Positions 596 to 16,512 of a DNA stretch of 42,736 bases are shown in pieces (the stretch's first letter is position 1; every line of letters starts with the position of its first letter). The notes under the pieces were generated by a model, which was given only the letters and a program-made list of their open reading frames with translations, ran no database searches and was not told where the DNA came from. This DNA comes from a virus, in IMG/VR virus record IMGVR_UViG_3300029267_001790, positions 1-42,736 of that record, one strand, 5' to 3'. A program made the position numbers and the translations under genes.

Positions 596-1549
596 CTATT
601 CGGCAGAGTTCGCATATCGTTCTGGACAATGCCAAACAACACGCCCAACGTTTTCAACTAAATTCATTTGTGCTTGAAATACCCCCATGCCCGGATTGGC
701 CGGTACGGCATGGTGCGTAATCACGGGAACGTGATGCATCATCGCTTCTTCGATACAAACGCCACAGGTCTCGCCATCCAGTCTAGCATGGAAAAACAAA
801 CCAAGCGTATTGTAAAATTTGGATAGAACGACTGGATCCGTCGTGGCCTCAATGGCCCGATACGGAATTCCCAGCCGTTCTAAGTCTTTAATCATATTCG
901 GCGGCGGTGCAAGCACCAAGAACCGAACGTCATATCCACGCTTACGGAGAATAGCCGCAGCTTCCACGTTGATTGGATCGTAAATACCATTCTCGGGACG
1001 ACCCGATCTACCAACAATAATACAGTCCTTTGGCCACCCTAGCTCGTCCCAAAAGGTTTCAAACTTAAGTGGCTGAATTTCTACCGGATTGTCAATGTAG
1101 GTAAACTTAGGACTGTGGCATTCCATTCCGCAAGCTTTACGCATAAGCCACTTGCTCATAAAAATGTGTCGATCGATTCTCGGATTGGTATCGATAAAGC
1201 CAAACACATTCGTAATCACGAAGTGCGGCACTTTGATGTGAATGCCGGGACGAGGATATTCCTCGTATCCACTCTGATATACATGTACCACATCAATCCC
1301 TTTATCGTCAATCACGGACTGTAAATCACTGGCATCTACTTGCCCCTCAGTAGCGTAAGAATCAATCTCAATCAGGTTGTCCCCGAGAATTTCTTGAAAT
1401 AGAGGGAGTCTGGGGTGGTCGCCGGTTCGCTCGTAGGCTACATACACCTCAAACTTCTCGCGATCGAGATACTTTGCGAAAAGCTGACAGGTCTTCTCCG
1501 TACCGCCCAAGGCTAGGTGACGGAGATAATGCAGAACTTTGATCTTCAT
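596..1549 (-). CDS. GT4-like glycosyltransferase, probably frameshifted at its 3' end
   Basis: The 317-residue GT-B fold glycosyltransferase has an N-terminal GGTEKTCQLFAKYL acceptor-side segment and a C-terminal DGETCGVCIEEAM segment. The latter contains the E-x7-E nucleotide-sugar motif of GT4 enzymes. The ATG at 1549 overlaps the stop of the preceding gene as ATGA. The protein ends abruptly at YANSAE followed by TAG, shorter than usual for the family. Slipping one base back at the final GAA opens a frame reading IEKIYEDICK. That frame ends in TGA at 567-569, exactly overlapping the ATG of the next gene as ATGA, the usual junction in this operon. This suggests loss of one A (GAAATA to GAATA) at about 599-600, real or a sequencing error. 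The intact gene would span 567-1549. The substrate is unknown. Confidence 0.8.
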   Translation of the reverse strand: MKIKVLHYLRHLALGGTEKTCQLFAKYLDREKFEVYVAYERTGDHPRLPLFQEILGDNLIEIDSYATEGQVDASDLQSVIDDKGIDVVHVYQSGYEEYPRPGIHIKVPHFVITNVFGFIDTNPRIDRHIFMSKWLMRKACGMECHSPKFTYIDNPVEIQPLKFETFWDELGWPKDCIIVGRSGRPENGIYDPINVEAAAILRKRGYDVRFLVLAPPPNMIKDLERLGIPYRAIEATTDPVVLSKFYNTLGLFFHARLDGETCGVCIEEAMMHHVPVITHHAVPANPGMGVFQAQMNLVENVGRVVWHCPERYANSAE

Positions 1550-1863
1550 TGCGGTTCAATGCCATTAGCTAATAGCTGTGCCTCAAGATCCCGAATTCGT
1601 TGCTTGGAAGCGTGTGCCTGATTTGCAATAACTCCCCTCGTGGGGCCGACTCTAAAAGGCGACCCCTCAAGTTCTGCAACCCTATTCATAAGACTAATCT
1701 CATGTTCTCTAAGAGTGGTGTTCTCGTCTTTAAGCTCATTATTTTTGGAAACAATCTTTAATAATGTATTCAGAGTTTCAAAATAATTCCGACGAAATCT
1801 ATCCCTGTCTTTATAAACCTTCGGGGTCAATCTATACTTAATTTTTGAAAAAAGCTCTTTCAT
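1546..1863 (-). CDS. Small coiled-coil protein in glycosyltransferase island
   Basis: This 105-residue protein has a basic N-terminus (MKELFSKIKYRLTPKVYKDR), then a heptad-like helix with Asn, Leu and Glu (about residues 25-60), then a short tail. I do not recognise a family. The frame stays open upstream to 1899, but I chose the ATG at 1863. That ATG overlaps the TGA of the glycosyltransferase remnant as ATGA, and the stop overlaps the next gene in the same way. The upstream extension would only re-read the remnant. The protein may be an oligomerising partner of the neighbouring glycosyltransferases, but that rests on position alone. Confidence 0.65.
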   Translation of the reverse strand: MKELFSKIKYRLTPKVYKDRDRFRRNYFETLNTLLKIVSKNNELKDENTTLREHEISLMNRVAELEGSPFRVGPTRGVIANQAHASKQRIRDLEAQLLANGIEPQ

Positions 1864-2018
1864 TTCCATTTCTTGCCTGCTTGCATGTGAGCCACCCATT
1901 CGTCCTGCGGTGGGCGTTGCTCGAAATCGCGAAACTCCTTCGCGTGCTTTAGGTGTCCTTCGAAATTATACCCGAAGGACTCTAATGCGGCAACACCTAT
2001 AGTCGCTTTCTTTTCAAG
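1860..2018 (-). pseudogene. Remnant 3' end of a GT2 gene, downstream of the homing endonuclease
   Basis: This is a 52-codon open stretch with no in-frame start codon before its last few codons. It is closed upstream by TAG (2019-2021) inside the endonuclease gene and ends in TGA. It contains FEGHLKHAKEF and ends HMQAGKKWK. The C-terminus of the intact GT2 gene at 2757-3623 reads FETHLKKHQEF and AMKQGKKW. By eye about 16 of 40 residues align identically with one gap. The TGA overlaps the next ATG as ATGA, the normal gene junction here, so this was once the functional end of a glycosyltransferase gene. It is probably untranslated now, unless ribosomes reinitiate after the endonuclease. Either a second tandem GT2 gene was mostly replaced by the endonuclease, or the element brought a substitute C-terminus with it. 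Confidence 0.75.
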
Positions 2019-2779
2019 CTATTTTTATTTTGAGAAAACCGAGACAATACTTCTCTTGCTTTTGCTCCATGAACACGGTACATGTAGGCATCTGAATGTT
2101 TGGTATTTTTGTATGGTAATGCCGTACTAATATTAAAATATCGATCAACAACTTCTTTTAGTTGTTTTAAAAATACCTCATTACCAACGAATGTGATTGT
2201 TAGATAGCCACGCTTGTCGTGATACGCACAACCGTCGCCATCAAAATACCCAGCAATGTAATCAATTAGTAATTCATCTTGAACGTCTGGTAATTCCAAA
2301 ACGTCAGACTTCTTGCCGGGAGGAATATTCCATACATCATCTAACGCCTTACATAAATCCACAGACTGAATTAAAAGAACAGCACGATTAAAAGTTCCAA
2401 AATTAGTTTTGCGGCCCCTTTGAATATCAATTGGACCATTGTAACGCAAATACTTTTTTAGAGAACGTAAATGATTTTGATCTTTTAAAGCAAGACCAAC
2501 ACTCAGTTGCGAGCCCACAGTAATGTGTCCATCGGCAGCAATAAAACCAGCCCAGTACGCTGCATCAGGTGTAAGTTCACCAAAGGCATCAAACCACAAA
2601 TCATACTGACGATTTGAGTTTCTTGAGTCTCCTTTTAGCCCCAACAAAAAAGCCTTCATTGAAATTGCATCATATGAACGTCCAGATAGTTTTTCAAGTA
2701 ATTCTACCCTAGAGCGGCACCTACCATAATACTTGGTCAAAACTGCAACTTCTTCGTTACTCCATTTCCTGCCACCCAT
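1997..2779 (-). CDS. LAGLIDADG homing endonuclease, free-standing
   Basis: The 260-residue protein has an N-terminal Myb/SANT-like DNA-binding segment (residues 4-50, beginning RKWSNEEVAVLTKYY). Two LAGLIDADG helices follow: AAYWAGFIAADG at about 73-84 and IDYIAGYFDGDG at about 172-183, each with the catalytic acidic residue. Such enzymes cut a long specific site in alleles lacking the element and so copy themselves by repair. I chose the ATG at 2779 over a GTG at 2785 because GGAG lies 8 bases before the ATG. The gene overlaps the 3' end of the GT2 gene by 23 bases and is followed by a remnant of a GT2 3' end. I see no splice-site residues or self-splicing intron signature, so it appears to be an insertion, not an intein or intron ORF. 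Confidence 0.92.
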   Translation of the reverse strand: MGGRKWSNEEVAVLTKYYGRCRSRVELLEKLSGRSYDAISMKAFLLGLKGDSRNSNRQYDLWFDAFGELTPDAAYWAGFIAADGHITVGSQLSVGLALKDQNHLRSLKKYLRYNGPIDIQRGRKTNFGTFNRAVLLIQSVDLCKALDDVWNIPPGKKSDVLELPDVQDELLIDYIAGYFDGDGCAYHDKRGYLTITFVGNEVFLKQLKEVVDRYFNISTALPYKNTKHSDAYMYRVHGAKAREVLSRFSQNKNSLKRKRL

Positions 2780-3623
2780 AATCACTTCTCCATTTTTTGC
2801 CTTGCTTCATAGCATCGGACCACGCGATTCTATCTGGAACTAGCGGCCAACGCTCTACAAATTCTTGGTGTTTTTTCAGGTGAGTCTCAAAGTGATGAGG
2901 AAAATACTCAGCAATAGATACAAATGTATCCCAGTTATTGAGCCACTTATTAGAATTCTCTAAAGAATCTGATCGTTGAGTATAGATTGTAATAAAGTCC
3001 TGAATTACATGACCATAATAACCAAGAGACATAAAATATAGCCATTGTGCGTAGTCATACCCAGATGTTAATACACTAGCTCTTTTTTCAAGATGATCCC
3101 AATCGAGAGAATCACGAAACTCCCGATCGTTACGCCAGAATACCTGAGGGCCAGCCCAACACTCCCGAGTCATTAGCTCGAAATCGAATTGGGGCTTGAG
3201 TCCTCGCCCCTTGAGTCGGCCAGTATCGTCAACTACAGTTAATCCACCGTATCCAAAACCGATAGGGTTAATCGGCCCCATTGGACCAGTCACAATCTTC
3301 ATGTGTTTGTGAACAGTCTCAGTCGTGTGCGGGGCATGAAAGTCATCAGTGTTGCTGTTAATGACAAACTCCCCTGTAGCAGAACGCCAAGCTCTCAACC
3401 ATGAAGCACCATATGGTTCTCGTTCTGCTACAGGAATGTAGTTAATACGCTCATCCAGAATTGCCCATTTTTGAGCAATGATGTCATCTGTTCCTGGCGA
3501 ATTAGGATTGACAATAACGATCTCGAAATTAGGATCGGTCTGACGTTCAATCAGATCGGCAAGGTGTCGATCTAAGTAGTGGCCAGAATCATAAGTCGAA
3601 ACCAGATATGAAAGTTTAATCAT
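2757..3623 (-). CDS. GT2-like glycosyltransferase, 3' end altered by endonuclease insertion
   Basis: The 288-residue protein has a GT-A fold pattern: an N-terminal KLSYLVSTYDSGHYLDRHL strand-helix, then FEIVIVNPNSPGTDD, and NSNTDDFHAPH, whose acidic pair would bind the metal and nucleotide-sugar. The start overlaps the upstream gene's stop as ATGA. The last residues, RSDYGWQEME after GKKW, are read from sequence that also forms the leader and first codons of the homing endonuclease. The remnant downstream shows that the ancestral ending was GKKWK followed by stop. The change only swaps the extreme C-terminus, so the enzyme is probably still active. Donor and acceptor are unknown. Confidence 0.82.
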   Translation of the reverse strand: MIKLSYLVSTYDSGHYLDRHLADLIERQTDPNFEIVIVNPNSPGTDDIIAQKWAILDERINYIPVAEREPYGASWLRAWRSATGEFVINSNTDDFHAPHTTETVHKHMKIVTGPMGPINPIGFGYGGLTVVDDTGRLKGRGLKPQFDFELMTRECWAGPQVFWRNDREFRDSLDWDHLEKRASVLTSGYDYAQWLYFMSLGYYGHVIQDFITIYTQRSDSLENSNKWLNNWDTFVSIAEYFPHHFETHLKKHQEFVERWPLVPDRIAWSDAMKQGKKWRSDYGWQEME

Positions 3624-4654
3624 ACTGTCATGCCATTATGGTAATGTCCCATGTTTGGCTGTGCTTGTTTTGTCATACAAAGCCAAATATTACCCCACTC
3701 CTCTCCAGCAAGAACTTTGCTGTAAAATGGATCGTCTCGCCAACTACCAACAACATTTAGCTCATGCGAACTAATCATGCTTGGTAGCGGCCTACCAGCT
3801 TTGAGAAAATAACAATCAAGCCAAGGGTTTGGGCCATCGTAAGACAAAACTGGCTCAGTTCCATCAAACCAATTCTTCACCTTTTGATCGAACTTCTCAT
3901 TTGCCTTGCCGTGAGCAACTAACTCTTTTTCGTAATACTCTTGCTTTTCTTTCATGACTTCGTTCATGCCGCGACGAGCATAGCCGTAGTGATAGATAAA
4001 AAAGTCATTCAGCATTACGCGACGACGCTGATAATGAGGCGAAAAGTACGTACAATGTCCAGCCGGATCAGTAACAACGGGGTGACTGTTATACTTCATT
4101 CCACGAACATACTTAAAGATGCGTTGATGCTGCGGCTGCCACTCGGGACCAGGAACAGCGACATGCATACAATCACCATAAAAGTGCAGGAAATTGGGGA
4201 CAAACTCACACGCATGAGGATTAAGGTCAATAGCCCTACGAAGACGACGAATATCTTCTGGACGATAAAACTCATCAGCATCGTTGATAATAAGCCAATC
4301 GCCAGGAACCGACATATCGAGGAAAGTTTGCTTCATTTCCTCTAAGTTCTTCCATGGTTTCTTGATCGAAATCACTAAGACTTTGTTATCTGGATCTTTG
4401 TTTGCTTTAAAATCAGAAATGATCTCGGCGGTCCGGTCGGTCGAATGACCATCCTCTGTCGAATTGGGGCGGTTTTCCACGGCTCCTTCGATAACGATGA
4501 TACGATCAACCTCATCGTAGATTGACCCAAGAACAGCCTCAGCAAATTCTTCCTCATTATGCATCTGGATCGCTTGCACAAGTCTCACTGGCTTGTTAAC
4601 TCGTTCCGCAATGCTTTGCATTTGGCTTTCGTAATAAATCTGTTGTTGGTTCAT
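3620..4654 (-). CDS. GT2-like glycosyltransferase
   Basis: This 344-residue GT-A fold protein begins its catalytic core at about residue 25 with RLVQAIQMHNEEEFAEAVL, a GT2-type start. EDGHSTDRTAEII follows, resembling the DGSTDxT loop, and then DWLIINDADEFY supplies the DxD metal-binding motif. A His/Arg/Tyr-rich stretch (HYQRRRVML and FFIYHYGYARRG) lies in the acceptor half. It has ATGA overlaps at both ends, so it should be translated together with its neighbours. Its role is transfer of a sugar to an unknown acceptor. No membrane segment is visible, so a cytoplasmic enzyme is likely. Confidence 0.85.
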   Translation of the reverse strand: MNQQQIYYESQMQSIAERVNKPVRLVQAIQMHNEEEFAEAVLGSIYDEVDRIIVIEGAVENRPNSTEDGHSTDRTAEIISDFKANKDPDNKVLVISIKKPWKNLEEMKQTFLDMSVPGDWLIINDADEFYRPEDIRRLRRAIDLNPHACEFVPNFLHFYGDCMHVAVPGPEWQPQHQRIFKYVRGMKYNSHPVVTDPAGHCTYFSPHYQRRRVMLNDFFIYHYGYARRGMNEVMKEKQEYYEKELVAHGKANEKFDQKVKNWFDGTEPVLSYDGPNPWLDCYFLKAGRPLPSMISSHELNVVGSWRDDPFYSKVLAGEEWGNIWLCMTKQAQPNMGHYHNGMTV

Positions 4655-5886
4655 TGTTCTAAAGTTTTCTTGTCGCCTTGGAATTGAGCTACGCCAGTTT
4701 GCTTGTAAGTATCGTGTGCCACTTCAATCTGTTCACAAATCTTCTCAGAAACGCGACGGAAATCATATCGATCTGCAACATGACGAGCGTTGGAACGACG
4801 AACAAGTACGCTCTCCCATTCCTTCTGATTCTTTTCGTCTAATTCGCCAGCATCGCTACCTTTGCGTAGAAGATGATACCTCTGCATAACCATGGCAAGC
4901 TCAGCAACAGATGGCTCGAAACACTGCTCAAGGCCAGTAAAAAGACCAGGATCAGGATGCGGCATGTCATAGAATAGGCTGGCACAACCACCATAGATCA
5001 AGGCATTGTCTTGAGAAACAAATTCCGCGAGACCAGTTTGATTGTGACTAATCACCGTGTTACCATGAGCAAGTGCGTCAAACACAGGAATGCCCCACCC
5101 CTCACAGCGACTCGAACAAACGTAAGCATCACCACGACGATGAAGACCGTGAATCTCCTCATCTGTCATCGTGTACACCAGCGGCAGAACCGGCGGCAAC
5201 TCGGCAGGAATGCGACACTTCTGCTTAACAGCATTGACGTACCCTTTAACCATTTCAAGATCATTGCCACGACCCTGCATATTAACATACGTCTTAAGAA
5301 CAAGAACAACCTCATCCTTCATGCCAGCAAAAGCAGCGTAGTAGGCACGCAGAAGTAAATCAATTCCTTTTTTATTGCTTAACTGACAAATGTTGTAAAA
5401 GACAGTTCTTCCATCAACATTGTCAATCTGGAACGGAGCATAGTCTTTCTCGTAAACGTTCTTGTCGCATGGTGGAGAAGCAACCAAGATTGGACGTTGC
5501 ACGCCAGACTTTAATAGCGTTTCCGCATTATGTCGAGAAGGAACCAAAATGAAATCAAATTCATTAGCCTTCTGTGCCCATGTTACCTGTAATCGATCGG
5601 TTTCAAAAAAGGTATAGAGTCCATTTACAATACCTGGAACCGGCTGTGCTTCAACGTTACATGTCGTCATTTGAATAGCAACATCAACGTCCATCAGGTC
5701 TTTTTCCAGGCATTCCTCCATCCACTTGGGCGTTTTGAACTCCTGGCCTTCATCTAATTGATCATACTTAAGGGCACGAGCAACAACATCAAATTTATCA
5801 TGCTCTAATAACGCTCGCATGAATTCACGCGAGGCATGAGCAAACCCACTAAAATCTTGTAGGGGTCCTGTAAACAATAACTTCAT
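4651..5886 (-). CDS. GT4-type glycosyltransferase
   Basis: This 411-residue GT-B fold protein has an N-terminal MKLLFTGPLQDFSGFAHASR and a middle segment ETDRLQVTWAQKANEFDFIL. The C-terminal donor-binding domain contains SSRCEGWGIPVFDALAHG. That is the GT4 E-x7-E site, with Asp in place of the second Glu. The following NTVISHNQTGLAEF is typical of the nucleotide-sugar pocket. The length fits a complete GT4 enzyme. It has four-base overlaps with both neighbours. The acceptor is not identifiable from sequence. Confidence 0.9.
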   Translation of the reverse strand: MKLLFTGPLQDFSGFAHASREFMRALLEHDKFDVVARALKYDQLDEGQEFKTPKWMEECLEKDLMDVDVAIQMTTCNVEAQPVPGIVNGLYTFFETDRLQVTWAQKANEFDFILVPSRHNAETLLKSGVQRPILVASPPCDKNVYEKDYAPFQIDNVDGRTVFYNICQLSNKKGIDLLLRAYYAAFAGMKDEVVLVLKTYVNMQGRGNDLEMVKGYVNAVKQKCRIPAELPPVLPLVYTMTDEEIHGLHRRGDAYVCSSRCEGWGIPVFDALAHGNTVISHNQTGLAEFVSQDNALIYGGCASLFYDMPHPDPGLFTGLEQCFEPSVAELAMVMQRYHLLRKGSDAGELDEKNQKEWESVLVRRSNARHVADRYDFRRVSEKICEQIEVAHDTYKQTGVAQFQGDKKTLEQ

Positions 5887-7679
5887 ACAAACTCCTGAGT
5901 TCTCTTCTGGATGGGTTTAATGCCAGCGACCTGTCTACGAACATGATCACGAGCCTTGCTAGCATTCGACTGTTGGTTACCAATTTGAACAAACTGACTC
6001 ATAAGTTGCTCACGAGTAGCTCCAGCCTCAAGGTGTCTAACCCATGTCTTTGCCCCCTCGGGATCAACCTGGGAGTACTTAAGAACCTCCATGTACAGCC
6101 AATCTACAAACTGTTCGTTAGTTAGACCGTCTGGCATTGGAACAGCGGCAACTTCATCATGGTCTTCAATGGGCGAATCCCAAGTTTCCGAACGATCATA
6201 TGGTTTAATGTTCTCTAGCACATAATCCCATTGCTTCCAAAGTTCATTCCAGTCGTAGTGTTCCTCTACGCACTCACGAGCTTCGACAGACATTTTCTTA
6301 AGACGTTCCTTATCAGAAAGCATTTTAAACATCTTGTCAGCAAGATCGCTTACATCTGGATGGGCACGCATGCAACTTGTTTCTGGCTCATAGTAATAAC
6401 GACCCACATCAATAGTTTCCCCACCTTTGTCCAGTGTGTAATTTTTCTCATTGATGCCCAAATCCTCAAAATGATCATAGTCAGGATAGCGTCCCTTTTC
6501 ACGCATAGCCGTGTAGTCAGTTACAAGCGTTGGTACGCCGCACGCCTTAGCTTCCTGGATCGGCATGCCGTCACCCTCACAGATTGAGCATTGAACGTAA
6601 ACATCAAAGGCGTTGTAAAGTTTAGCAAGTTCTTCGCGGTCAAAGCCCACGCTTGTATTAGGCGGCGAAGCTTCTTGTTGGCCGCAATGCGGACAAGGTA
6701 GCTTGATGCGACCATCTTGGACAGGCTTATTCCACAAATTCATAGCAAAAGTCATCGAGCTTTCGCCACAGTGATGACAGTACACAGTTTGCATAATGCT
6801 ACCACGAATGCCCTTGTAATGATGCGGCATCCAATCGTATGACTCAAGACGCATGATGTGTCGCGGGTAATCGTAAGAGTGTGCGTTATCTGGCCAAGAG
6901 GAATGAATCGCCAAAACCGCCTTGTCAGCAACTTCATTGCCCTCATAACGCTTCTTCATTAACGCAAAAGCATCAACAAGATCAGGATATAACTTACGAC
7001 TCTGGTTACGCATAACGGTACCAACAATCGGAAGACTCTTATTTAAATTCCAATGGTCTCTAATTTCATTCTTATCCATCGGCTTAAAAGTATCAAGATC
7101 AACGCCCGGCCTCATGGCCTTGGGGAAAATCTTCATGCGACGCTTGCCATTTGGCATCATCACGCTTTGGCGACGAAGAGTATGTACTCCATAATCAGAA
7201 TAAGCCAAAACCATATTTGCATTTTCATACGTAGAAATCCATTCTTCCGACTGAGGCTCCGCGTCCACGGTGGGCATTACGACCCACTTATACCAGTTAC
7301 GAAAAGCACTACGCTCTTGATACTCAAGCATCCACCAGTCACGAATATCAATCACAATATCTGGCTGAAAATCCGCTAGTACGGCGTCAAATTTGTATTC
7401 GCCAAACTGATTAGTATTTTGGCCCCTACCACGAGGATGAGCACATGGCTTTTGAAAAGCTTGGGCCTCAGCCTCATTTGTAGGCATAACCCCATAGAAT
7501 TTCCATCGCCCCCTGATAAACTCCTCAGCACGAGGGTCATCCTGACGAGCATAACAGCCAAGCTCTGCAATTTCATACTTGCCAGTCTTCACCAATCGTG
7601 GAAGAAGTTCTCTGTAGTAAGTAGAGAAACCCGTGTTCAGAAAGCTAGCCTCTCCAATAAACAAAATACGTTTTTTCAT
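5883..7679 (-). CDS. GT4-type glycosyltransferase with zinc-ribbon insert and C-terminal DUF4214-like domain
   Basis: At 598 residues this is the largest glycosyltransferase here. The N-terminal half begins RILFIGEASFLNTGFSTYYR, and the donor domain holds CEGDGMPIQEAKACGVPTLV with E368 and E376 forming E-x7-E. Between the two halves sits a CHHC (residues 301-304) and CPHC (329-332) pair, a four-cysteine zinc-ribbon pattern not standard in GT4 enzymes. Residues of about 515-565 (TNEQFVDWLYMEVLKYSQVD, then WVRHLEAGATREQL) match the DUF4214 pattern found in secreted and surface-associated proteins, some joined to glycosyltransferases. It is the first gene of the island, and its ATG overlaps the sigma-factor stop as TAATG. 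Confidence 0.9.
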   Translation of the reverse strand: MKKRILFIGEASFLNTGFSTYYRELLPRLVKTGKYEIAELGCYARQDDPRAEEFIRGRWKFYGVMPTNEAEAQAFQKPCAHPRGRGQNTNQFGEYKFDAVLADFQPDIVIDIRDWWMLEYQERSAFRNWYKWVVMPTVDAEPQSEEWISTYENANMVLAYSDYGVHTLRRQSVMMPNGKRRMKIFPKAMRPGVDLDTFKPMDKNEIRDHWNLNKSLPIVGTVMRNQSRKLYPDLVDAFALMKKRYEGNEVADKAVLAIHSSWPDNAHSYDYPRHIMRLESYDWMPHHYKGIRGSIMQTVYCHHCGESSMTFAMNLWNKPVQDGRIKLPCPHCGQQEASPPNTSVGFDREELAKLYNAFDVYVQCSICEGDGMPIQEAKACGVPTLVTDYTAMREKGRYPDYDHFEDLGINEKNYTLDKGGETIDVGRYYYEPETSCMRAHPDVSDLADKMFKMLSDKERLKKMSVEARECVEEHYDWNELWKQWDYVLENIKPYDRSETWDSPIEDHDEVAAVPMPDGLTNEQFVDWLYMEVLKYSQVDPEGAKTWVRHLEAGATREQLMSQFVQIGNQQSNASKARDHVRRQVAGIKPIQKRTQEFV

Positions 7680-8332
7680 TAAACTGCCTCCTGAATGGCA
7701 AACTGAATTCTTTCTTTAAGTGCGGCTTCGATTTCGTAGACCTTATTGACGGATACAGATAAATCACTGGCAACATCTTTTGCAGAATCAGTACCCATGA
7801 TTCTTCTATTGACAATGTGTTGCTCAATCTCGTTGTTAATCACGCTTGAAATAAGATTAGAAATGGCAATCTCGTCACCGCCAGGATCTTCCATGCGATC
7901 GTCCTCTGACGGCTGAGTGTGTCTTTTTTCATAGGCCGAGAGTAAGGCAATAACGTGAGACTCGGAAATATTGCGGCCACTACTCTCTGAAAGACGCTCG
8001 GCAATTTCTAGCGTCTTTAATCCCTGTTCATTAAACTGCCTAGCTTTTGAGGCTAATGCTGTCGTGCGAAAGTCCACCGTAAAAACCCCCAAGAAACGTG
8101 CGGCCTCATTGTAAACATCGCGGCGAATTGTGCGAGCCACAAAAGACTTAATCGACATGCCATGGCTGGGATCATAGGCTGATACAGCCCTCAACACCGC
8201 CACATTGCCTACTTGATACAAGTCATTAATGTCTAATGCACTAGAAGAGTATCTAGCCGAATGGGCAATTTTACGAACGATAGGACCATACTCTTCTAGA
8301 AGTCCATCAACGTCAAGACCCTCATACATCAT
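7679..8332 (-). CDS. Sigma-70 family RNA polymerase sigma factor
   Basis: The 217-residue protein has a clear sigma region 2 at residues 33-80 (DINDLYQVGNVAVLRAVSAY, then GMSIKSFVARTIRRDVYNEA), which binds core RNA polymerase and melts the -10 element. A linker or region 3 follows. The C-terminal helix-turn-helix-like region 4 (AKDVASDLSVSVNKVYEIEAA) would read a -35 element. An upstream extension of the frame to 8476 only re-reads the neighbouring gene. The ATG at 8332 directly follows that gene's last codons and overlaps its stop. The spacing upstream is poor in Shine-Dalgarno bases, so translation is probably coupled. It could redirect host RNA polymerase to phage promoters outside this window. 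Confidence 0.87.
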   Translation of the reverse strand: MMYEGLDVDGLLEEYGPIVRKIAHSARYSSSALDINDLYQVGNVAVLRAVSAYDPSHGMSIKSFVARTIRRDVYNEAARFLGVFTVDFRTTALASKARQFNEQGLKTLEIAERLSESSGRNISESHVIALLSAYEKRHTQPSEDDRMEDPGGDEIAISNLISSVINNEIEQHIVNRRIMGTDSAKDVASDLSVSVNKVYEIEAALKERIQFAIQEAV

Positions 8333-8540
8333 TTTTCTTTTGGCGTGACCGGACAGGCTTTCTAAACCAAATATAGGGTGCTGAAAATGGGTAAAGAGCT
8401 TCCCAGCCTTCCTGCCCCCTGGTGTTGATAATGTCCTTGATAATGCTATTAATAGCATTAACGTCAACCATGCCAAGTTCTAATTTGGCTTGATCTTGTT
8501 CGCTAAGTGGAATTTGCTCAAAGTCGTATTCGTACTTCAT
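8322..8540 (-). CDS. DUF4177-like small protein
   Basis: The 72-residue protein has the pattern MKYEYDFEQIPL, then a helix (VNAINSIIKDIINTRGQ), then EGWEALYPFSAPYIWFRKP. This is a beta-alpha-beta arrangement with the GWE signature of small DUF4177-type proteins, whose function is unknown. The ATG overlaps the DNA polymerase stop as ATGA. The 3' end overlaps the sigma-factor start by 11 bases, so it lies in the same translation-coupled chain. The basic tail RSRQKKNDV is formed in the overlap. Confidence 0.7.
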   Translation of the reverse strand: MKYEYDFEQIPLSEQDQAKLELGMVDVNAINSIIKDIINTRGQEGWEALYPFSAPYIWFRKPVRSRQKKNDV

Positions 8541-11500
8541 TTCAGTCTGGTTACATTATTGGCGATAAGAGATCCCCTGTCATCTACTTTTCCAGAAATC
8601 TTAACTACATTGCCATTCTCAAGCAGCCGCTTTGACTTTTGAAAGACTCTAGGAAAAACAACCATGTTGTCCATCATATAGGTATCATCTTTAACAGTCA
8701 GGAAGGCCATTGGCTCCTGCTTTGTTTTCGTAAGGATCTCATGCATTCTGTCAATACAGACGGCAATTTCAAACTGCATGCCCTCATAGCCATTCTTCAC
8801 AAGGTCGATACATTTATGTTGACTCTTGTAGACATCAGCTTCACTACCGCTGAGAGAAATGCCTAAGAGGTCATGCTCCCATGCAATATTTTGAGCACGG
8901 CTATCAAAAATGTCTTGTTGATCATACTCAGTTAAAATCTCTCTAAGCTTGATGCGACGACGACTATTCGGAACCTTAACACCAAACTTGTCCTTAACAG
9001 TTTCGACACGTTCCTCGTCCGCAATCGCACGCACAAAACGAACCCAATCATCTACGTCAGGGTTTTTGCTAATTAAAATTTTAACAGTCTCTCTTTCGTT
9101 TGTCGTAAGTGAGCTAAGTAGTTGATATTCAGCTAAGCAACGAACCCTATGTTCTTCGCTATCATCAAAGGCACCCCCCTTGATGAGAGCGTTCATAACA
9201 GCAGAAGTAATTTTAGTCTTGCTACTAACTACATGCCAAATGATATCACTAAAACTATCATAACTCTTAGTTACCTTGGCTAAATCATTGACGGCGGCGG
9301 CACCAACTCCCTTGAGGGCCGAGAGGCCAAATGCAATGTGATTATCATCAATAACCTCAAAAGTCTTATTTCCCAATGAGGCACGAGGAGGCACAACCTC
9401 AATCTCAAACACCTTCGCATCATACACTAGGGCACTCATTTGCTCAAACTTGTCAGGATGACTTTCCGCGTGACGAAGCTTCGCACAGAAAAATTCAACT
9501 GGATAATTTGCTTTTAAATAAGCGGTCTCATAGGCCAAAAGTGCATAACCAACACCATGAGACTTGTTGAAACCATAACCAGCAAACTTTTCAATGTAAC
9601 CCCAAATTTCATCAGCAACACGAGCCTCAATACCGCTTTCGCGACAACCATCTTCAAAAACGGTTTTCCACTCCCGCATTTCTTCCGGCTTCTTTTTGCC
9701 CATGGCCTTACGAACCTTATCGGCATCGATAAGAGACATTCCGGCAAGCTGTTTGCAAATTTCGATTACTTGTTCCTGATACAAAAGGGCGGAATAGGTC
9801 GGAGACATAATTGGCTCCAGCATTGAATGAATATAGCTGGCTTCTCCACCATGCTTAACCTTTTTGTAGTATTCATGCATTCCACTCTCCATCGGCCCAG
9901 GACGAATAATACTAATTAAATCAGAAAGCTCCTCGATATTACTAGGCTCCAGATTCTTGCTCCATGTGCGTCCTAGCTGCTTTTCAATCTGAAAGAGGCC
10001 GACAGTAAACCCCTGAGAAATCATTGCCCAGGTCTTAGGATCATCCATAGGCATGTTCTCACGCGAAACATCGATATCGTGACGTTGCTTAACAAGATCG
10101 CTGGCTACCTGAATATCATCTAACGTGGTAAGGCCAAGAATATCCAGCTTAAGCAAGCTCAAAGAATCCACGGTACCCATATCCCAACCGAAGATCATGT
10201 TGCCGTCTTTCGCACGAGTTAACGGATACCAACTATCCTCAAAAGGCTCATCAGAAATCACAACGGCTGCTGCGTGAATACCAGTAGACTTATAGCACCC
10301 CTCAAGAGATAACGCAATCTTAAACCAGGGCTTATACTGCTCGTAATACTCTTTTAGCTTAGGAACAGTATCGATAGCTTCCTGCAAGCTAATCGCTACG
10401 TGTTCGTCATTTTTGGCCGGAACCAAACTAGTGATTGCATTAGCCTCATCAAAGGGCATGTTGTAAACTCTGAATACTTCCTTAAGAATGGCCTTTGCTT
10501 GAAGACCACCAAGCGTAACAATCTGTGCAACATTAGCATTGCCGAAACGCTTTCGAATGTAGTTTAGAACTTTTTGACGTTGCGACCTCGGAATATCCGA
10601 ATCAATATCCGGCAAGCCACCGCGACCTTTGTTAAGGAACCTTTCCCAAATGAGACCATACTCAATGGGGTCGATTTCAGTAACCCCCAGGAAATAGCTA
10701 ACAAGGCTACCACCCGCACTGCCGCGTCCACGACCAACAAGGATGCCTTCATTTCTAATCCAAGACATGACATCATGAACAATGAGGAAGTAATCAGCAA
10801 ACCCCATTTCATCAATGTCGCTTAACTCTCTATCAAGCCTTTCTTGATAAGTCTCGAAATCATCACCATCCGTAGGATTGATCGCAAGTCTTTTCATGCC
10901 CTGCACGCAAAGCTCTCGAAGATAGTCCATGGGACTAGTCCCGTCTGGAGTAAACTTGTACTTGGGCAATCTACGCTTCTTAAGATCAATGTCTACATTG
11001 CAAGAATCAGCAATTTTTAGGGCGGCATCCAACTCATCCTCAGTGACATCAAGGATAACCATGTCGTCACGACTCTTGAGGTAATACTCCTCTACGGAAA
11101 AATCAGCATAAGTCGCACGACTAAACTTGTTCTGATTCATTTCCAGGAGCGTCCGATGTGCCTCAGCGTCATGCTCCTCAACATAATGAGCGTTGTTAGT
11201 CGCTACAGTACGAACCCCATACTTCTTAGAAAGATTACGAAGTCTAGAGTTAATGATTTTCTGATCTGCAAGACCATGATCCTGTACTTCAAGGAAAAAA
11301 TGATCCGTGTCATAAATTTTAAGGAAACGACGAACAAGACCGTCGGCTTTAAACAAAGCAGCAGGAGCAAAAACATCGCCCGCGTCGTCCTTCTTGTCGT
11401 AAAGATTAGACGAAATGACTCCATCGAAGCTACTGCCTGACAGACAAATAACCCCTTCTTTGTATTTTTCTAAAAGAGCAAAGTCAACACGCGGGTTGTA

Positions 11501-11842
11501 ATAGTAATACTCTTCCGAATGTGCCATGGACACTAAGCGTGAAATGTTCTTCCAGCCAGTCTCGTTTTCCGCAAGCAGAACAATATGAGTAACTTGACGC
11601 ACCTTTTGATCACGAGCCTCAAGAGCATCTTCACAAAAGAACAGATCGACCCCAAGAATAGGCTTAACGCCCGCATTGGTAGCCTCTCTGTAAAAAGAGA
11701 TCGCGTCGTATAGGTTGGAATAATCGGTCAAAGCCACCGCTGGCTGTCCCAACTCCTTGGCCCGACTGACGACATTTTTAATGTCAGCAGAACCATAAAG
11801 CATCGAGGCTTTAGACCGAACGCTTAGATTTACAAAGGTCAT
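8537..11842 (-). CDS. dnaE: DNA polymerase III alpha subunit (DnaE type, family C)
   Basis: The 1101-residue replicative polymerase has, in order, a PHP domain (about 1-280) and a palm with GRGRGSAGGSLVSYFLG and PDIDSD. D412, D414 and D567 (in KLDILG) are the expected catalytic aspartates. Helix-hairpin-helix-like FGLSALKGVG follows, and the last 90 residues form an OB-fold-like domain. The PHP metal ligands are degenerate: the usual HLHVHS start reads NLSVRS and the TDHGN site reads TDYSN, so no exonuclease activity is expected from it. QQDIF at about 975-979 sits where Escherichia coli alpha has its beta-clamp peptide, so the enzyme probably uses a sliding clamp. No clamp or epsilon subunit is encoded in the window. 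ATGA overlaps occur on both sides. Confidence 0.97.
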   Translation of the reverse strand: MTFVNLSVRSKASMLYGSADIKNVVSRAKELGQPAVALTDYSNLYDAISFYREATNAGVKPILGVDLFFCEDALEARDQKVRQVTHIVLLAENETGWKNISRLVSMAHSEEYYYYNPRVDFALLEKYKEGVICLSGSSFDGVISSNLYDKKDDAGDVFAPAALFKADGLVRRFLKIYDTDHFFLEVQDHGLADQKIINSRLRNLSKKYGVRTVATNNAHYVEEHDAEAHRTLLEMNQNKFSRATYADFSVEEYYLKSRDDMVILDVTEDELDAALKIADSCNVDIDLKKRRLPKYKFTPDGTSPMDYLRELCVQGMKRLAINPTDGDDFETYQERLDRELSDIDEMGFADYFLIVHDVMSWIRNEGILVGRGRGSAGGSLVSYFLGVTEIDPIEYGLIWERFLNKGRGGLPDIDSDIPRSQRQKVLNYIRKRFGNANVAQIVTLGGLQAKAILKEVFRVYNMPFDEANAITSLVPAKNDEHVAISLQEAIDTVPKLKEYYEQYKPWFKIALSLEGCYKSTGIHAAAVVISDEPFEDSWYPLTRAKDGNMIFGWDMGTVDSLSLLKLDILGLTTLDDIQVASDLVKQRHDIDVSRENMPMDDPKTWAMISQGFTVGLFQIEKQLGRTWSKNLEPSNIEELSDLISIIRPGPMESGMHEYYKKVKHGGEASYIHSMLEPIMSPTYSALLYQEQVIEICKQLAGMSLIDADKVRKAMGKKKPEEMREWKTVFEDGCRESGIEARVADEIWGYIEKFAGYGFNKSHGVGYALLAYETAYLKANYPVEFFCAKLRHAESHPDKFEQMSALVYDAKVFEIEVVPPRASLGNKTFEVIDDNHIAFGLSALKGVGAAAVNDLAKVTKSYDSFSDIIWHVVSSKTKITSAVMNALIKGGAFDDSEEHRVRCLAEYQLLSSLTTNERETVKILISKNPDVDDWVRFVRAIADEERVETVKDKFGVKVPNSRRRIKLREILTEYDQQDIFDSRAQNIAWEHDLLGISLSGSEADVYKSQHKCIDLVKNGYEGMQFEIAVCIDRMHEILTKTKQEPMAFLTVKDDTYMMDNMVVFPRVFQKSKRLLENGNVVKISGKVDDRGSLIANNVTRLK

Positions 11843-12495
11843 TGTTTAGGTCGCTTTTCGTAAACTTTTTTAGTGGGCTTAGTGACACGCTTACCAGGAT
11901 GCTTCTTAATGTTTCGTTCTCGCATTTTGTTAAGTCGTGCTCTGTTCGCCACCTGGGAACGAGTTTCCTTGTAATTCCCACTGCCATCGTAACTACCCTC
12001 TCGAACAGGATCGATGTTGTGCTTGTCCCATAGATCACCAACTCGCACACGAGTCTTAATTCCAGGCTCATTAGCGTAGGATAGCTCAGTATCGTCAGCA
12101 GGAATCAATTTGGCCTGACACACGTTCTCTTCCTCATCCTCATGTTGACAACAAAGAGTGCCATCGTCAAGCATCGATTCGATATCTTCGATACGCCCCT
12201 CTATGTTTGTATGCGTGTTGGGACCAGTTTTGATGCTAAGCCAGCCATGACTAAAAGCACCCACAACATTAACGTGTCCATGTTCACAGATAAAGACCTT
12301 TCCAGGGTTATAGAGAGTTTCTCCTCTCGAAATGAAAATAGGCTGGTTGCCACGCCCCTCTTCTTTGCATTTTGGGCAAACAGCCTTCATCTTCGGAATC
12401 TTTTTCTCCAAAGCATCTTCTTGGCGACGAGTCATGATCATGGTCTCTTTGTGGCCACATGTCCAACATGTAATATCAACTTCATGAGCAGCCAT
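11839..12495 (-). CDS. Zinc-finger protein of unknown function
   Basis: This is a 218-residue protein. Residues 9-45 contain CWTCGHKE and CPKCKEEG, a four-cysteine zinc ribbon. Further Cys/His pairs occur in FICEHGHV and LCCQHEDEEENVCQ, so a second metal site is possible. The C-terminal 60 residues are strongly basic (many Lys and Arg), suggesting nucleic-acid binding. I chose the ATG at 12495 over a GTG three bases upstream because AGGAGG lies about 8 bases before it. The gene overlaps its neighbours by TGATG and ATGA. Its place between the polymerase and the ClpP-like gene suggests a replication or regulatory role, which is inference only. Confidence 0.72.
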   Translation of the reverse strand: MAAHEVDITCWTCGHKETMIMTRRQEDALEKKIPKMKAVCPKCKEEGRGNQPIFISRGETLYNPGKVFICEHGHVNVVGAFSHGWLSIKTGPNTHTNIEGRIEDIESMLDDGTLCCQHEDEEENVCQAKLIPADDTELSYANEPGIKTRVRVGDLWDKHNIDPVREGSYDGSGNYKETRSQVANRARLNKMRERNIKKHPGKRVTKPTKKVYEKRPKQ

Positions 12496-13079
12496 CACTC
12501 ACCCTCCTTCTCATCCCAAATATTGTCAATTACGCCCCATTCCAGGGCTTCTTCTGCACCAAAGTATGCATCGTGTGGCTTGGCACATAGTTTCTTCCAA
12601 AAGCTTTTTGGCTTGTTGGTATACTTCGCCATAAGGTCATACCAGCGTTCCCAAAACTTTTTAACGTGTTCCAGGTGTCCATTGTGCTGATTTAAATTTT
12701 CTCCATTGCTTCCCCACCACGGAACATGTACCATAAAAGTCGTGTTTGGACCACACCAACGATTACCCTTTTCTCCACAGGCGACAAGAAGCGTAGCCGC
12801 TGACATAATCTTGCCAATACCAAAAGTATGCACTGGGGACTTAAGTGTCCTAGTAACGTCATGTACTCCCATCATGTCATAAACATCGCCACCATAAGAA
12901 GAAATTCTTAACTCAATTGGATCATGTTTTTCATTTTGTTGATCCATTAAGTACATGCCTTGAATTACATTACCGCTGCTGTGCTCGTCAATCTCACCAG
13001 TTAGGAAAATAAAACGATTCGTAATGTCTACGCCATGATCAAAATAGGCACCAACCCAGTCTTTACTAATTCTAGCCAT
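12495..13079 (-). CDS. ClpP-like serine protease (S14 family)
   Basis: The 194-residue protein has the ClpP core. RISSYGGDVYDMMGV forms the substrate strand. The catalytic triad is visible as S93 in GKIMSAATLLVACG, H118 in FMVHVP, and D170 in PHDAYFGAEEALEWGVID. ClpP-fold proteases cut peptides or capsid scaffolds. In many phages they mature the prohead, but here the gene lies among replication genes, far from any visible head gene. The ATG at 13079 was chosen because AAGGAAGG lies about 10 bases upstream. It overlaps the nuclease stop by 8 bases. No chaperone ATPase partner is encoded nearby, so it may act alone or with host ClpX or ClpA. Confidence 0.92.
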   Translation of the reverse strand: MARISKDWVGAYFDHGVDITNRFIFLTGEIDEHSSGNVIQGMYLMDQQNEKHDPIELRISSYGGDVYDMMGVHDVTRTLKSPVHTFGIGKIMSAATLLVACGEKGNRWCGPNTTFMVHVPWWGSNGENLNQHNGHLEHVKKFWERWYDLMAKYTNKPKSFWKKLCAKPHDAYFGAEEALEWGVIDNIWDEKEGE

Positions 13080-14034
13080 TGATATTAAACCTTCCTTTCC
13101 AATTAGCTTTACAAACCTCAGCATCACACAATGAACGACACTTCCATGCTGATCGCTTGTCTAGGTCTTCATTGCTTCGGACAATTCTATCAATCCACTC
13201 GGTTGACTGAATCTCCTCAATCTTCTTACGAACGTACTCTTCCGTTTCAAGATCCTCTTCTTCTGAAAACGCCACAGTAATTGGTTTTTCAGTGAAGTAA
13301 TCAAACGTCAAAAGAATATTCTTGTATTTGTATCCTTTGCCAGCTACATCATCGATAAACTCACGGCGAGCAGCAAGCGAGTACATTCTTACCTGAATAT
13401 CTTCACGGCACTCATCGTAATTCTGAGTCCAAGATCCTGTCTTGTAATCAATGACTTCAATCGTGTCTTCGTCTAGCTCGGTCACAAGGTCAATAATACC
13501 AATCATGGGAACATCCGTTCCAGGCACTTTGATATTAAATTGGTATTCACAACCAACCATTTTTCCATCAGAATCCTTAAGTGTACGCGGCCAAATCTCT
13601 TCATAACGACGCATGGTATTCTCAACCATGGAAATAGAGTTATCAAACAGATCCCTGGGGCATCCAGTAAGAGCATCAAGAGGCTCTTGCGAAATCGTAC
13701 ACTTATCTTCACCGACGTAAGGACAGGTATCGCAAAACGGTTTCTTGTCAGCAAAGTCTTTTGACTTGGCCCAAACCAGAGGAGATTCCATGGTTTCAGG
13801 ATCACCATAGCGGCCAATGGTTTCTAACGTGCCACCATACCCACGATAAAGTCTATCAACCCACTCTGAATCCTCACCATTTACATAGTATTCTAGCACA
13901 TCATGAATTAGAGATCCATGTGCAGCACCCCAATTCGATTTCAAAGCCAACTTAGTATGGTAAGTTAGCCAGTATTTGAACTTACACATATCAAAGGTTT
14001 TGATACGACTAGGCGAAATTGATTTTAACTTCAT
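13072..14034 (-). CDS. Cas4/RecB/AddB-like PD-(D/E)XK nuclease with probable Fe-S cluster
   Basis: The 320-residue protein opens SISPSRIKTFDMCKFKYW, the start typical of the PDDEXK_1 (Cas4, RecB, AddB) family. H44 (GSLIHDVLEYY), the Asp in IGIIDLV and the EVIDYKTG motif make up the metal-dependent nuclease site. Cys17 plus three cysteines near the C-terminus (CRSLCDAEVC) match the four-cysteine 4Fe-4S arrangement of Cas4 and AddB. An internal loop, CDTCPYVGEDKC with a further Cys, could hold another metal. It overlaps the primase stop as ATGA. The likely job is 5' or 3' end resection feeding RecA, or processing of replication intermediates. No CRISPR array is present. Confidence 0.9.
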   Translation of the reverse strand: MKLKSISPSRIKTFDMCKFKYWLTYHTKLALKSNWGAAHGSLIHDVLEYYVNGEDSEWVDRLYRGYGGTLETIGRYGDPETMESPLVWAKSKDFADKKPFCDTCPYVGEDKCTISQEPLDALTGCPRDLFDNSISMVENTMRRYEEIWPRTLKDSDGKMVGCEYQFNIKVPGTDVPMIGIIDLVTELDEDTIEVIDYKTGSWTQNYDECREDIQVRMYSLAARREFIDDVAGKGYKYKNILLTFDYFTEKPITVAFSEEEDLETEEYVRKKIEEIQSTEWIDRIVRSNEDLDKRSAWKCRSLCDAEVCKANWKGRFNING

Positions 14035-15095
14035 TTAATGTCCTCGAAAATTTGTTGTGCTTCTTCTACCGTCAGGTCGCCACAGTCCTTACCAAATGGC
14101 AATTTAACGACATTAATCTCGAAAAGGTCTCCAACGATACGTCTCATCTTCTCAAGAGCCTTGTCGATAGGGGCAATGTTATTCTTGTAATTCGCGGGAT
14201 CGTCTTGATCGTAAGCAACATACAAATGACGGATGCCATACTTAACCAACAGAGTTCGATGTGCTGCTGAAAAATTAGTGCTAAGAGTAGCAACCCAGTT
14301 TCGGATACCAGCCTCCTCAAGCCTCATGCCATCCAGGGGTCCTTCTACTAGAATAATCCTGCGATGGGGCTCAATCCAATTCTTTGCCTTGTGTAAATTA
14401 AACAAAATCGATCCAGTCGAAAGCTCTCCACGCTTGGGCCATCTATTGAAGTGACGCCCATGAACCCACTTGTTATAAGCAAGGCCCTTTTTCTCGAAAT
14501 AGGATTCAGAGTGAATAGTGCGGCCGGTATAGCCGACTAAATGCCCTTCGTCGTCCCTCACGGGGAAAATAACTCTATCGTGCATGAACGTGGCTGGACG
14601 ATGCCACAAGCCAACTTGATATTTTTGTAGAACCCCGGAATCAAATCCGCGATCGATAAGATAGCGAGGCTTTGGTTGCAAGAACTTAAGGTTGTCTTCG
14701 TTTAAAGGTTCGTGAACAAAGACCTGATCGCGACGAGTCTCGGGCATTGCAACGTCAGCCGCAAGATCAACATTCTCGTCGTTCATTACGCTCTCGATCC
14801 ATTTTACCGTATCTGCAAAGTTTGTACCCAGGACGCTACTGACTAAACCAAGAATATCGTTACCCCGGCTCTCTTCGCAATGGTGAGTCCAACAAACCCA
14901 CTTACCGATATCTGTACGCCAGCTAAATGCCGTAGCGTTATTGCGATCACCAGGATGCTGCTTGCAAGGACATACAGACTGAATGAGTCCGTCGCCACGA
15001 TCATAATGACTCATGCCAAGTTTATCAAAAACTTTGTGAGCGTTACGAGTGGCGTGCTTTTTTAGCTGCTCAATCTTCTTCTTCGGAATCGTCAT
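14031..15095 (-). CDS. DnaG-type DNA primase
   Basis: This 354-residue primase carries an N-terminal CHC2-like zinc site (C44, H47, C68, C73 around CPCKQHPGD and CWTHHCEESRGND). A middle segment (DRVIFPVRDDEGHLVGYTGR) is typical of DnaG catalytic cores. A TOPRIM domain follows, with E251 in LVEGPLDGM and D296 and D298 in VAYDQDD as the metal ligands. It lacks the C-terminal helicase-binding domain of full-length bacterial DnaG (usually near 580 residues). Phage primases of this size are common. The start lies inside the 3' end of the helicase gene (26-base overlap) with no clear Shine-Dalgarno, suggesting coupled translation and fixed stoichiometry with DnaB. Confidence 0.93.
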   Translation of the reverse strand: MTIPKKKIEQLKKHATRNAHKVFDKLGMSHYDRGDGLIQSVCPCKQHPGDRNNATAFSWRTDIGKWVCWTHHCEESRGNDILGLVSSVLGTNFADTVKWIESVMNDENVDLAADVAMPETRRDQVFVHEPLNEDNLKFLQPKPRYLIDRGFDSGVLQKYQVGLWHRPATFMHDRVIFPVRDDEGHLVGYTGRTIHSESYFEKKGLAYNKWVHGRHFNRWPKRGELSTGSILFNLHKAKNWIEPHRRIILVEGPLDGMRLEEAGIRNWVATLSTNFSAAHRTLLVKYGIRHLYVAYDQDDPANYKNNIAPIDKALEKMRRIVGDLFEINVVKLPFGKDCGDLTVEEAQQIFEDIK

Positions 15096-16512
15096 CGTTA
15101 TTATCTTGTCTTACAGAACCAATCTCAAGCTCTTGGAAATTACCGCAGCTAAGATCAACTTCAAAGTTAATGTATGCGTCATGAAGACCACGGCCAAAGC
15201 GAGACTTCCAAATAGAAACCTTGTGAGTTCCTACTGGGTCCTCTGCTCTTTCGCGATCAGTTTTGCGTTTGATATAGAAAACCGAGTCAACGTTTTCGCT
15301 GATTCGCTTCCCTCCCGCGACCGCACGAATGCCCTCGTCAGCCTCATTGTTGGTCTGGCCAAATGCAATCATGGGAATATTGTATTTCTGAATAAAGTCG
15401 TGCAATTGTGCCACGAACAAACCATTCTGCTGCCACTCTTGAAGTACGCCGCGACGCATTTCACTCGTCATGGCAAGCTTAATGTAGTCATAAACAATCA
15501 GGCATTGCGGCATCTTCGCTTCGCGACTTGGCTTAACATGTGTAAGCAACCAGCGTCGCATATGAGGTTCAACGTCGGGCACACTTAGACCGCTGATAGA
15601 TTGATAATAAATTGGAAGCCTTTCTACACGCTCCCACAACTTAGGATCACGCAAGCGACGACCATAGGCAAGAATCTCATTGATCTGTTGCTGATCAAGC
15701 CCCTGATCACGTAACTGGTCAGCATCCATTTTCCAAAAACCAGACTCAACGATATCTGATGGAATGCGTGCCAAAATAGATGCCATGCGAACCCATTGAG
15801 AATGCTTATCTAGCTCACTATCTAGATACAAAACAGGTAGCCCCATTAGTGCAGCCGCAACCGCAGCGTCGAGACCAAATTGACTCTTACCGCTACCAGT
15901 AGTAGCAACACCAAGATGAAGAGAACCATTGCGAATACGCCCAATACGTTCCTGTAGAATAGGGTATCCAAGATCAAGACCAATGTGACCAGGATCATCG
16001 GCAAGCTCCTCTAGGAACTCCTTAAATCCTTCTCGCATATCAACAATGGCATGCTCGCCCTTGTCGATCATGTTTACCTTGCTAATAATCTCGTTTTCAA
16101 CAGTGGAGATAACCGCACTGAGCGGATCGCTTGTTGTATCGAGATAATTGCGTAGCTCTTGGAATGACTGTCGATAAGCCCTTGCAATAGCCTGACGTTT
16201 AACTTCCAAGAAATGATTATCGATCTCATGGACCGTAATCTCTTCTGCAAAAAGTTCGTCTACCCATTCCCCATTTCGAGTAGCAGAAAGATAATTCTGA
16301 TGACCAAGCGATTTTGCTTCCGACACAATCTTCGCTTTCGTAATCTTCTGAGCTTCCTTGTCAATAATAAGAGAACGAATTGCCTCATAAGTCATTCGCG
16401 GCGTCGAATGCTCAAAATCATCTTCGTCTAAATACTCGGCAAACTCAAACAGCTTTTCTGGAAACTGAACAAGCCCGGACAAGAACACCTTTTCTGCTGC
16501 AACATTACTCAT
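15070..16512 (-). CDS. dnaB: DnaB-family replicative helicase
   Basis: The 480-residue protein has a helical N-terminal domain (1-100, beginning SNVAAEKVFLSGLV) that in DnaB contacts primase. A RecA-fold motor follows: Walker A GVATTGSGKS at 201-210, YLDSELDKHSQWVRMAS (motif H1a), the CLIVYDYIKLA Walker B strand, and AFGQTNNEADEGIRAVAGGK with the arginine-finger region after it. The very acidic tail (DNNDDDSEEED) resembles a protein-binding tail. I set the start at the ATG at 16512, which overlaps the upstream stop by 8 bases. The frame extends to 16542 but only through the neighbouring gene. It should form the hexameric fork helicase with the primase and polymerase encoded downstream. Confidence 0.95.
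   Translation of the reverse strand: MSNVAAEKVFLSGLVQFPEKLFEFAEYLDEDDFEHSTPRMTYEAIRSLIIDKEAQKITKAKIVSEAKSLGHQNYLSATRNGEWVDELFAEEITVHEIDNHFLEVKRQAIARAYRQSFQELRNYLDTTSDPLSAVISTVENEIISKVNMIDKGEHAIVDMREGFKEFLEELADDPGHIGLDLGYPILQERIGRIRNGSLHLGVATTGSGKSQFGLDAAVAAALMGLPVLYLDSELDKHSQWVRMASILARIPSDIVESGFWKMDADQLRDQGLDQQQINEILAYGRRLRDPKLWERVERLPIYYQSISGLSVPDVEPHMRRWLLTHVKPSREAKMPQCLIVYDYIKLAMTSEMRRGVLQEWQQNGLFVAQLHDFIQKYNIPMIAFGQTNNEADEGIRAVAGGKRISENVDSVFYIKRKTDRERAEDPVGTHKVSIWKSRFGRGLHDAYINFEVDLSCGNFQELEIGSVRQDNNDDDSEEED

Follow-up and report, generated by a model that had tools for sequence, protein, structure and literature searches.

A phage LAGLIDADG homing endonuclease gene that very probably brought a substitute end to a glycosyltransferase gene

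A homing endonuclease gene (HEG) that lands in coding sequence usually depends on an intron or intein to spare the gene, or else occupies an intergenic site. The locus described here raises the question of how such a gene comes to lie between a glycosyltransferase gene and a diverged copy of that gene's 3' end. The stretch of DNA that was analysed (the window) is a virus record of 42.7 kb with most of its genes on the minus strand, as are all features of this locus. The initial annotation proposed either that the element carries a substitute C-terminus or that it entered between two tandem glycosyltransferase genes. The best explanation, which we consider very probable, is that the HEG invaded the 3' part of the gene together with a divergent in-frame substitute tail, leaving the native end stranded behind the HEG.

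The glycosyltransferase gene (3623-2757) is of the GT2 type (PF00535, E=4.6e-14) and is part of a glycosyltransferase cluster, in which a GT2-like gene (4654-3620) is its upstream neighbour. Its first 230 codons (2934..3623), which hold the PF00535 match, constitute the native body on the basis of their identity to HEG-less relatives, whereas codons 231-288 with the stop (2757..2933) appear foreign to this GT2 lineage as judged by tail identity, branch length and GC3. The LAGLIDADG gene (1997..2779) encodes 260 aa (PF14528 LAGLIDADG_3, E=4.1e-9; phrog_4645, E=8e-27) and begins, as had been noticed at the outset, inside the last GT2 codons; the overlap measures 23 nt and the GT2 stop lies inside the HEG. 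Behind the HEG an open frame of 52 codons (2018-1863) is found, the homologous part of which (1991-1860, about 43 codons) is the displaced native GT2 3' end, referred to below as the remnant. Its TGA (1862-1860) overlaps the ATG (1863-1861) of the native downstream gene (1546..1863), which encodes a small coiled-coil protein, so that the claimed junction between remnant and next gene holds; a GT4 gene (1549-596) follows in the cluster. Small genes start within the GT2 3' end at the same place in the HEG-less loci L016 and L012. The reading frame of the remnant is that of the GT2 start both in the window and in the one other carrier, L003. Inspection of the remnant frame revealed no ATG, GTG or TTG before its last third, and translation of the remnant is therefore not expected.

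The homology of the remnant to the GT2 C-terminus is far beyond chance. The estimate made by eye, about 16 of 40 residues identical, compares with a measured identity of 39% over 44 aligned residues, and the profile search that had been suggested readily detects the relationship. A profile of the first four fetched GT2 proteins scores the remnant at E=5.5e-12, and a profile from HEG-less relatives alone gives E=1e-16 for the window remnant and 7e-14 for that of L003, the next best of 1550 frames reaching E=2.7. The two remnants are 55% identical to each other, whereas native tails of genes with a body identity of at least 0.80 are at least 78% identical, which indicates that the remnant is decaying, and faster so in L003.

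The decisive comparison is that with relatives lacking the HEG. Scans with the GT2 protein and with a four-member alignment identified relatives at 25 loci in viral contigs and at one locus in a contig of a bacterial MAG (L038, Hydrogenophaga); some of the HEG-less loci are near-copies of one another. Only L003 has the GT2 gene, the HEG and the remnant in the same order as the window. All 25 HEG-less loci contain exactly one GT2 gene of this family in the fetched stretch, and neither a remnant nor a tandem GT2 copy was observed in any of these stretches. A substitute C-terminus carried by the element predicts a single GT2 gene whose 3' end resembles the remnant and whose body resembles the window GT2, and this is what all 25 loci display, the body match covering 3623-2934. 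The two full GT2 genes predicted by an ancestral tandem pair were found in none of them. The initial annotation had also tied its reading to the absence of the same short remnant from relatives without the endonuclease, and it is absent from all 25. Together with L003, these loci strongly support the first of the two proposals.

The identities of the separate parts lead to the same view. GT2 codons 1-228 of the window are 58-69% identical to those of close HEG-less relatives (45-49% for L005 and L028). The 3' ends of HEG-less genes (body identity 0.58-0.69) are 54-73% identical to the window remnant, versus 0.35-0.47 to the window GT2's own tail (body identity 0.60-0.70); among pairs of HEG-less genes with body identities of 0.60-0.70, the mean tail identities are 0.62-0.70 (range 0.47-0.86). 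Body and remnant thus track the relatives at one level of divergence and the tail does not, so that, judged by these identities, the native gene survives as body plus remnant, and the tail now joined to the body is foreign. Tree branches for the window and L003 amount to 0.32 for the bodies (full support), 1.63 for the substitute tails and 0.15 for the remnants. In both carriers GC3 is 0.25-0.38 from about codon 171, versus mostly 0.4-0.7 in the relatives, and it is 0.60 and 0.48 in the remnants of the window and L003, respectively. The DNA identity between the two carriers rises near the same codon, from about 0.70 to 0.78-0.92, and drops to 0.65 in the remnant. The low GC3 suggests that the imported block may begin near GT2 codon 171 (~3113), well upstream of the protein breakpoint at about codon 231. 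A scan of viral contigs with the tail matched L003 only; no GT2 gene that could be the donor, with this tail and lacking a remnant, came to light in it, and the GT2 had no match in annotated phages.

The endonuclease has the two motifs WAGFIAADG and IAGYFDGDG, and the acidic residues of both are kept in the window, L003 and L005; the window HEG thus combines a LAGLIDADG fold with an acidic residue in each of two motifs. It is 81% identical to that of L003. Among solved structures the best profile match is PDB 2dch (E=1.5e-5), an archaeal I-Tsp061I-like LAGLIDADG enzyme. The match is confined to query positions 75-255 and leaves out the N-terminal domain of the window HEG. Neither a group I or II intron in 1500-3700 (Rfam, relaxed threshold, E up to 5) nor an intein or splicing domain in the GT2 or the HEG (Pfam) was detected. 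The HEG therefore lies outside any detected intron or intein, as a free-standing gene does, and its site is occupied in two alleles (window and L003) and empty in 25 among the relatives, as is characteristic of a homing gene.

The right junction and the putative target site (1965..1999) were located by alignment to the DNA of 17 HEG-less genes. In the window the HEG stop (1999-1997) is followed by the native sequence GCC GCA TTA GAG TCC TTC GGG TAT AAT, where most of the HEG-less genes read ...GCC ATT TCG GAG TTC TTC GGT CAT AAT or close to it; L016 has the variant TTC GGG TAT CAT. The L003 remnant reads GTT TCG GAG TTC TTC GGG TAT AAT, at most some 15 nt from the HEG stop, and the substitute tail has GAG TAT TTT CCT CAT CAC at the corresponding place. 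Since the junction DNA continues the native site, the boundary of the element falls in a conserved coding site some 43 codons ahead of the native stop, and this is where we infer the point of insertion or cutting to lie.

A course of events can be proposed from this arrangement. A free-standing LAGLIDADG HEG very probably entered the 3' part of a GT2 gene and brought along a substitute for the last ~58 codons, joined in frame to the native body such that a full-length enzyme is still encoded. The HEG start codon overlaps the new GT2 end, and what was the native 3' end now follows the HEG as a remnant, presumably untranslated, whose overlap with the next gene is still the native one. The enzyme presumably cuts HEG-less GT2 alleles around ATT TCG GAG TTC TTC GGT CAT AAT, and repair would copy the element with the GT2 body as the left homology arm and the remnant as the right arm. 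The carrier may be protected from its own enzyme by the insertion and the altered substitute together, as the site has lost its left half in the remnant and reads differently in the substitute. As to the origin, a foreign GT2 gene probably had the HEG directly behind its 3' end, which one-sided repair would then have carried into a diverged allele along with the HEG. The "cassette" may thus simply be the co-converted upstream flank of a HEG located behind a foreign GT2 gene.

Three other explanations were weighed against this one. The chimeric tail could stem from ordinary recombination with a foreign GT2 gene, unrelated to the HEG, which inserted at the junction later. The weaker synonymous identity of the substitute block than of the HEG between window and L003 leaves room for separate histories, but a replacement of this kind would remove the native end instead of leaving one behind. 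Moreover, both carriers have all three of tail, HEG and remnant, while none is found at this site in the 25 others, and L005 offers a likely second case with the same order; we therefore regard ordinary recombination as improbable. An entry of the HEG between two ancestral GT2 genes, followed by deletion of nearly all of the second copy, has a parallel in the same-family HEGs that lie between tandem paralogs in other phages (L051 and L082). It is contradicted by the fetched stretches of the 25 HEG-less relatives, none of which has a second GT2 gene of this family, and by the first gene being a chimera of native body and foreign end, which a whole paralog would not be. On these two grounds the tandem origin was rejected as very improbable.

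It is also conceivable that the insert is an intron or intein, with the body and the native end rejoined in RNA or protein, and that the substitute tail serves only the unspliced product. The remnant is indeed in frame with the GT2 start and still open in both phages. However, the searches described above found no intron of group I or II and no intein domain, and in particular no match in Rfam to an intron core around the ORF; the insert has its end right at the HEG stop, and divergence between the two remnants is much faster than among native tails. This makes splicing the least credible of the explanations, at the edge of what we would entertain. Several observations count against the preferred reading, that of a HEG accompanied by a substitute tail: both remnants are still without stop codons over about 43 codons, the arrangement is carried by two phages only, the scan of viral contigs gave no donor gene, and the substitute block shows weaker recent sharing than the HEG.

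The hybrid enzyme is predicted to fold well. Mean pLDDT is 89.6 in the AlphaFold model of the window GT2 and 91.5 in that of L010; both models have confident tails, and the predicted fold matches that of GT-A enzymes such as SpsA and TarP. The last helix is modelled in the same place in both (residues 265-273 and 264-272), and the substitute tail shortens one helix and adds an extension in the predicted structure. On these models the substitute tail is plausibly a working replacement.

Because the flanks are saturated, raw synonymous distances were replaced by the fraction of identical synonymous codons and compared to a codon-permutation control. Between the window and L003 this fraction is 0.72 for the HEG (0.47 permuted, z=9.2), whereas the upstream flanking genes have 0.40-0.44 (0.38-0.42 permuted, z 0.7-0.9). 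The two phages have therefore shared the HEG at a later time than the flanks, which is the behaviour expected of a homing gene. For the substitute block the value is intermediate, 51 of 87 synonymous codons being identical (59%; p=0.004 versus flanks, p=0.03 versus HEG), and this weaker sharing suggests that HEG and substitute tail may not always move together. The downstream GT4 gene has been shared recently as well (z=6.4); recombination is thus patchy, and we take the codon comparison to support mobility without being conclusive. Inside this GT4 gene, a patch (731-970) has up to 91-92% DNA identity to L003 in surroundings of 65-85%, which suggests that this gene underwent a recent exchange of its own, downstream of the element.

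Substitute gene ends of this type are known from fungal mitochondria, and the window appears to be a phage example. Mobile endonuclease ORFs make gene hybrids in atp6, atp9, cox2 and nad3 of Glomus/Rhizophagus mitochondria, the ORF being of the LAGLIDADG type in all but atp9 (PMC3630166), and the same type of hybrid occurs in atp6 of Allomyces macrogynus (PMC3630166, its ref. 48, Paquin et al. 1994). The order is the same as in the window: gene body, in-frame foreign C-terminus, endonuclease ORF and stranded native C-terminus. In both systems the native remnant is nearer to the relatives than the inserted end is (0.54-0.73 versus 0.35-0.47 for the empty relatives of the window). The systems differ in that the window element sits in a GT2 gene within a phage operon and that its inserted and native tails are 39% identical at the protein level, as compared to 91% for the Glomus atp6 ends (PMC3630166). 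Furthermore, mobility was shown biochemically in mitochondria (per PMC3630166), whereas for the window element it is deduced from the sequence.

Among phages, the free-standing Seg and Mob enzymes of the T4 type resemble the window HEG in being promoter-less genes in operons, sporadic among relatives, whose start overlaps the upstream gene, by 20-24 nt in segC, mobA and mobC (PMC2988022). They are, however, GIY-YIG or HNH enzymes and mostly lie between genes, unlike the LAGLIDADG gene inside the GT2 3' part. Aeromonas phage Aeh1 mobE in nrdA and T4 mobA in gene 60 also lie within a phage coding region (PMC2988022), but those insertions leave the gene as two coding pieces, whereas in the window the displaced piece is substituted and becomes a remnant. 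The phage homing endonuclease review describes intergenic and gene-splitting HEGs, and a search of its text for "duplicat" returned no duplicated gene end (PMC2988022). For mobile elements carrying coding sequence, PMC3630166 cites a dissertation on T-even phages (its ref. 47). No phage case of a HEG with a substitute gene end was found in the open-access literature searched. A spare gene end would be a further solution for a HEG that hits coding sequence. Its occurrence in phages suggests that double-strand-break repair between diverged alleles generally gives rise to such ends as a by-product. It also opens the trick to tests in a laboratory system that is fast to work with, and it identifies one origin of chimeric phage genes that would otherwise pass for random mosaicism.

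A scan for the HEG family returned 80 loci, most of which are plain insertions. In L005 (6807-8695) a GT4 gene is followed by a related LAGLIDADG HEG, the C-terminus of which (KLERIYMELASG) looks like a native GT4 end. Its last residues, DKLERIYMELASG, match the ends of HEG-less GT4 genes (KLERIYREVV, KLESIYREVVSG), and the junction with the next gene is a GTGGATAA-type overlap similar to the one in HEG-less L004. When 1389 C-termini were scored against a GT4-end matrix, the HEG end came 7th, behind six that all resemble GT4 ends from other phages; L005's own GT4 gene scores below the HEG end. It appears that the native GT4 end was fused to the HEG's own C-terminus and that the GT4 gene carries another end, which makes L005 a likely second, shorter case of a substitute gene end. 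In L052 (3303-4720) an unrelated gene of 168 aa precedes the HEG, and the end of that gene is repeated over 16 residues (LIMIKKGWLKFDEEID / LLLIENNWLEFKDLLD) directly behind the HEG, before the ATG of the next gene; the repeat scores 41, versus a maximum of 36 in 1471 mismatched pairs. A HEG-less relative of L052 was looked for and not found. Carriage of substitute ends could therefore be recurrent in this phage HEG family, in GT2 (window and L003), GT4 (L005) and perhaps L052, with homing repeatedly swapping glycosyltransferase C-termini between phage lineages, a generalisation that we put forward tentatively and consider nearly as likely as its opposite.

Other loci of the family were set aside. 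L051 (3228-5500) and L082 (3063-5001) were rejected as remnant cases, since their HEG is flanked by two homologous genes in tandem, each of about 200 aa, the second of which extends past the end of the fetched stretch in L082; this order is the starting arrangement that a tandem origin requires. LAGLIDADG HEGs also occur at other junctions in glycosyltransferase clusters (L011:4242-4889, L012:11327-11980, L030:3636-4307 and L044:3953-4765), each overlapping the upstream gene end. They were rejected as cases of a carried gene end, being plain gene-junction insertions with no duplicated end. In L058 (2341-4921) the HEG adjoins a gene whose end looks by eye like an intein splicing domain, and the repeat score of this locus may stem from that end instead of from a cassette.

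Elsewhere in the window, a GT4 protein (5883-7679) has an additional match to DUF4214 at residues 517-565, and its cysteines form a zinc-ribbon-like cluster at about residues 327-369. The region 7679-18074 encodes a sigma-70 region 2 protein, a DnaE-like polymerase, ClpP, a PD-(D/E)XK nuclease, a primase, a DnaB-like helicase and RecA.
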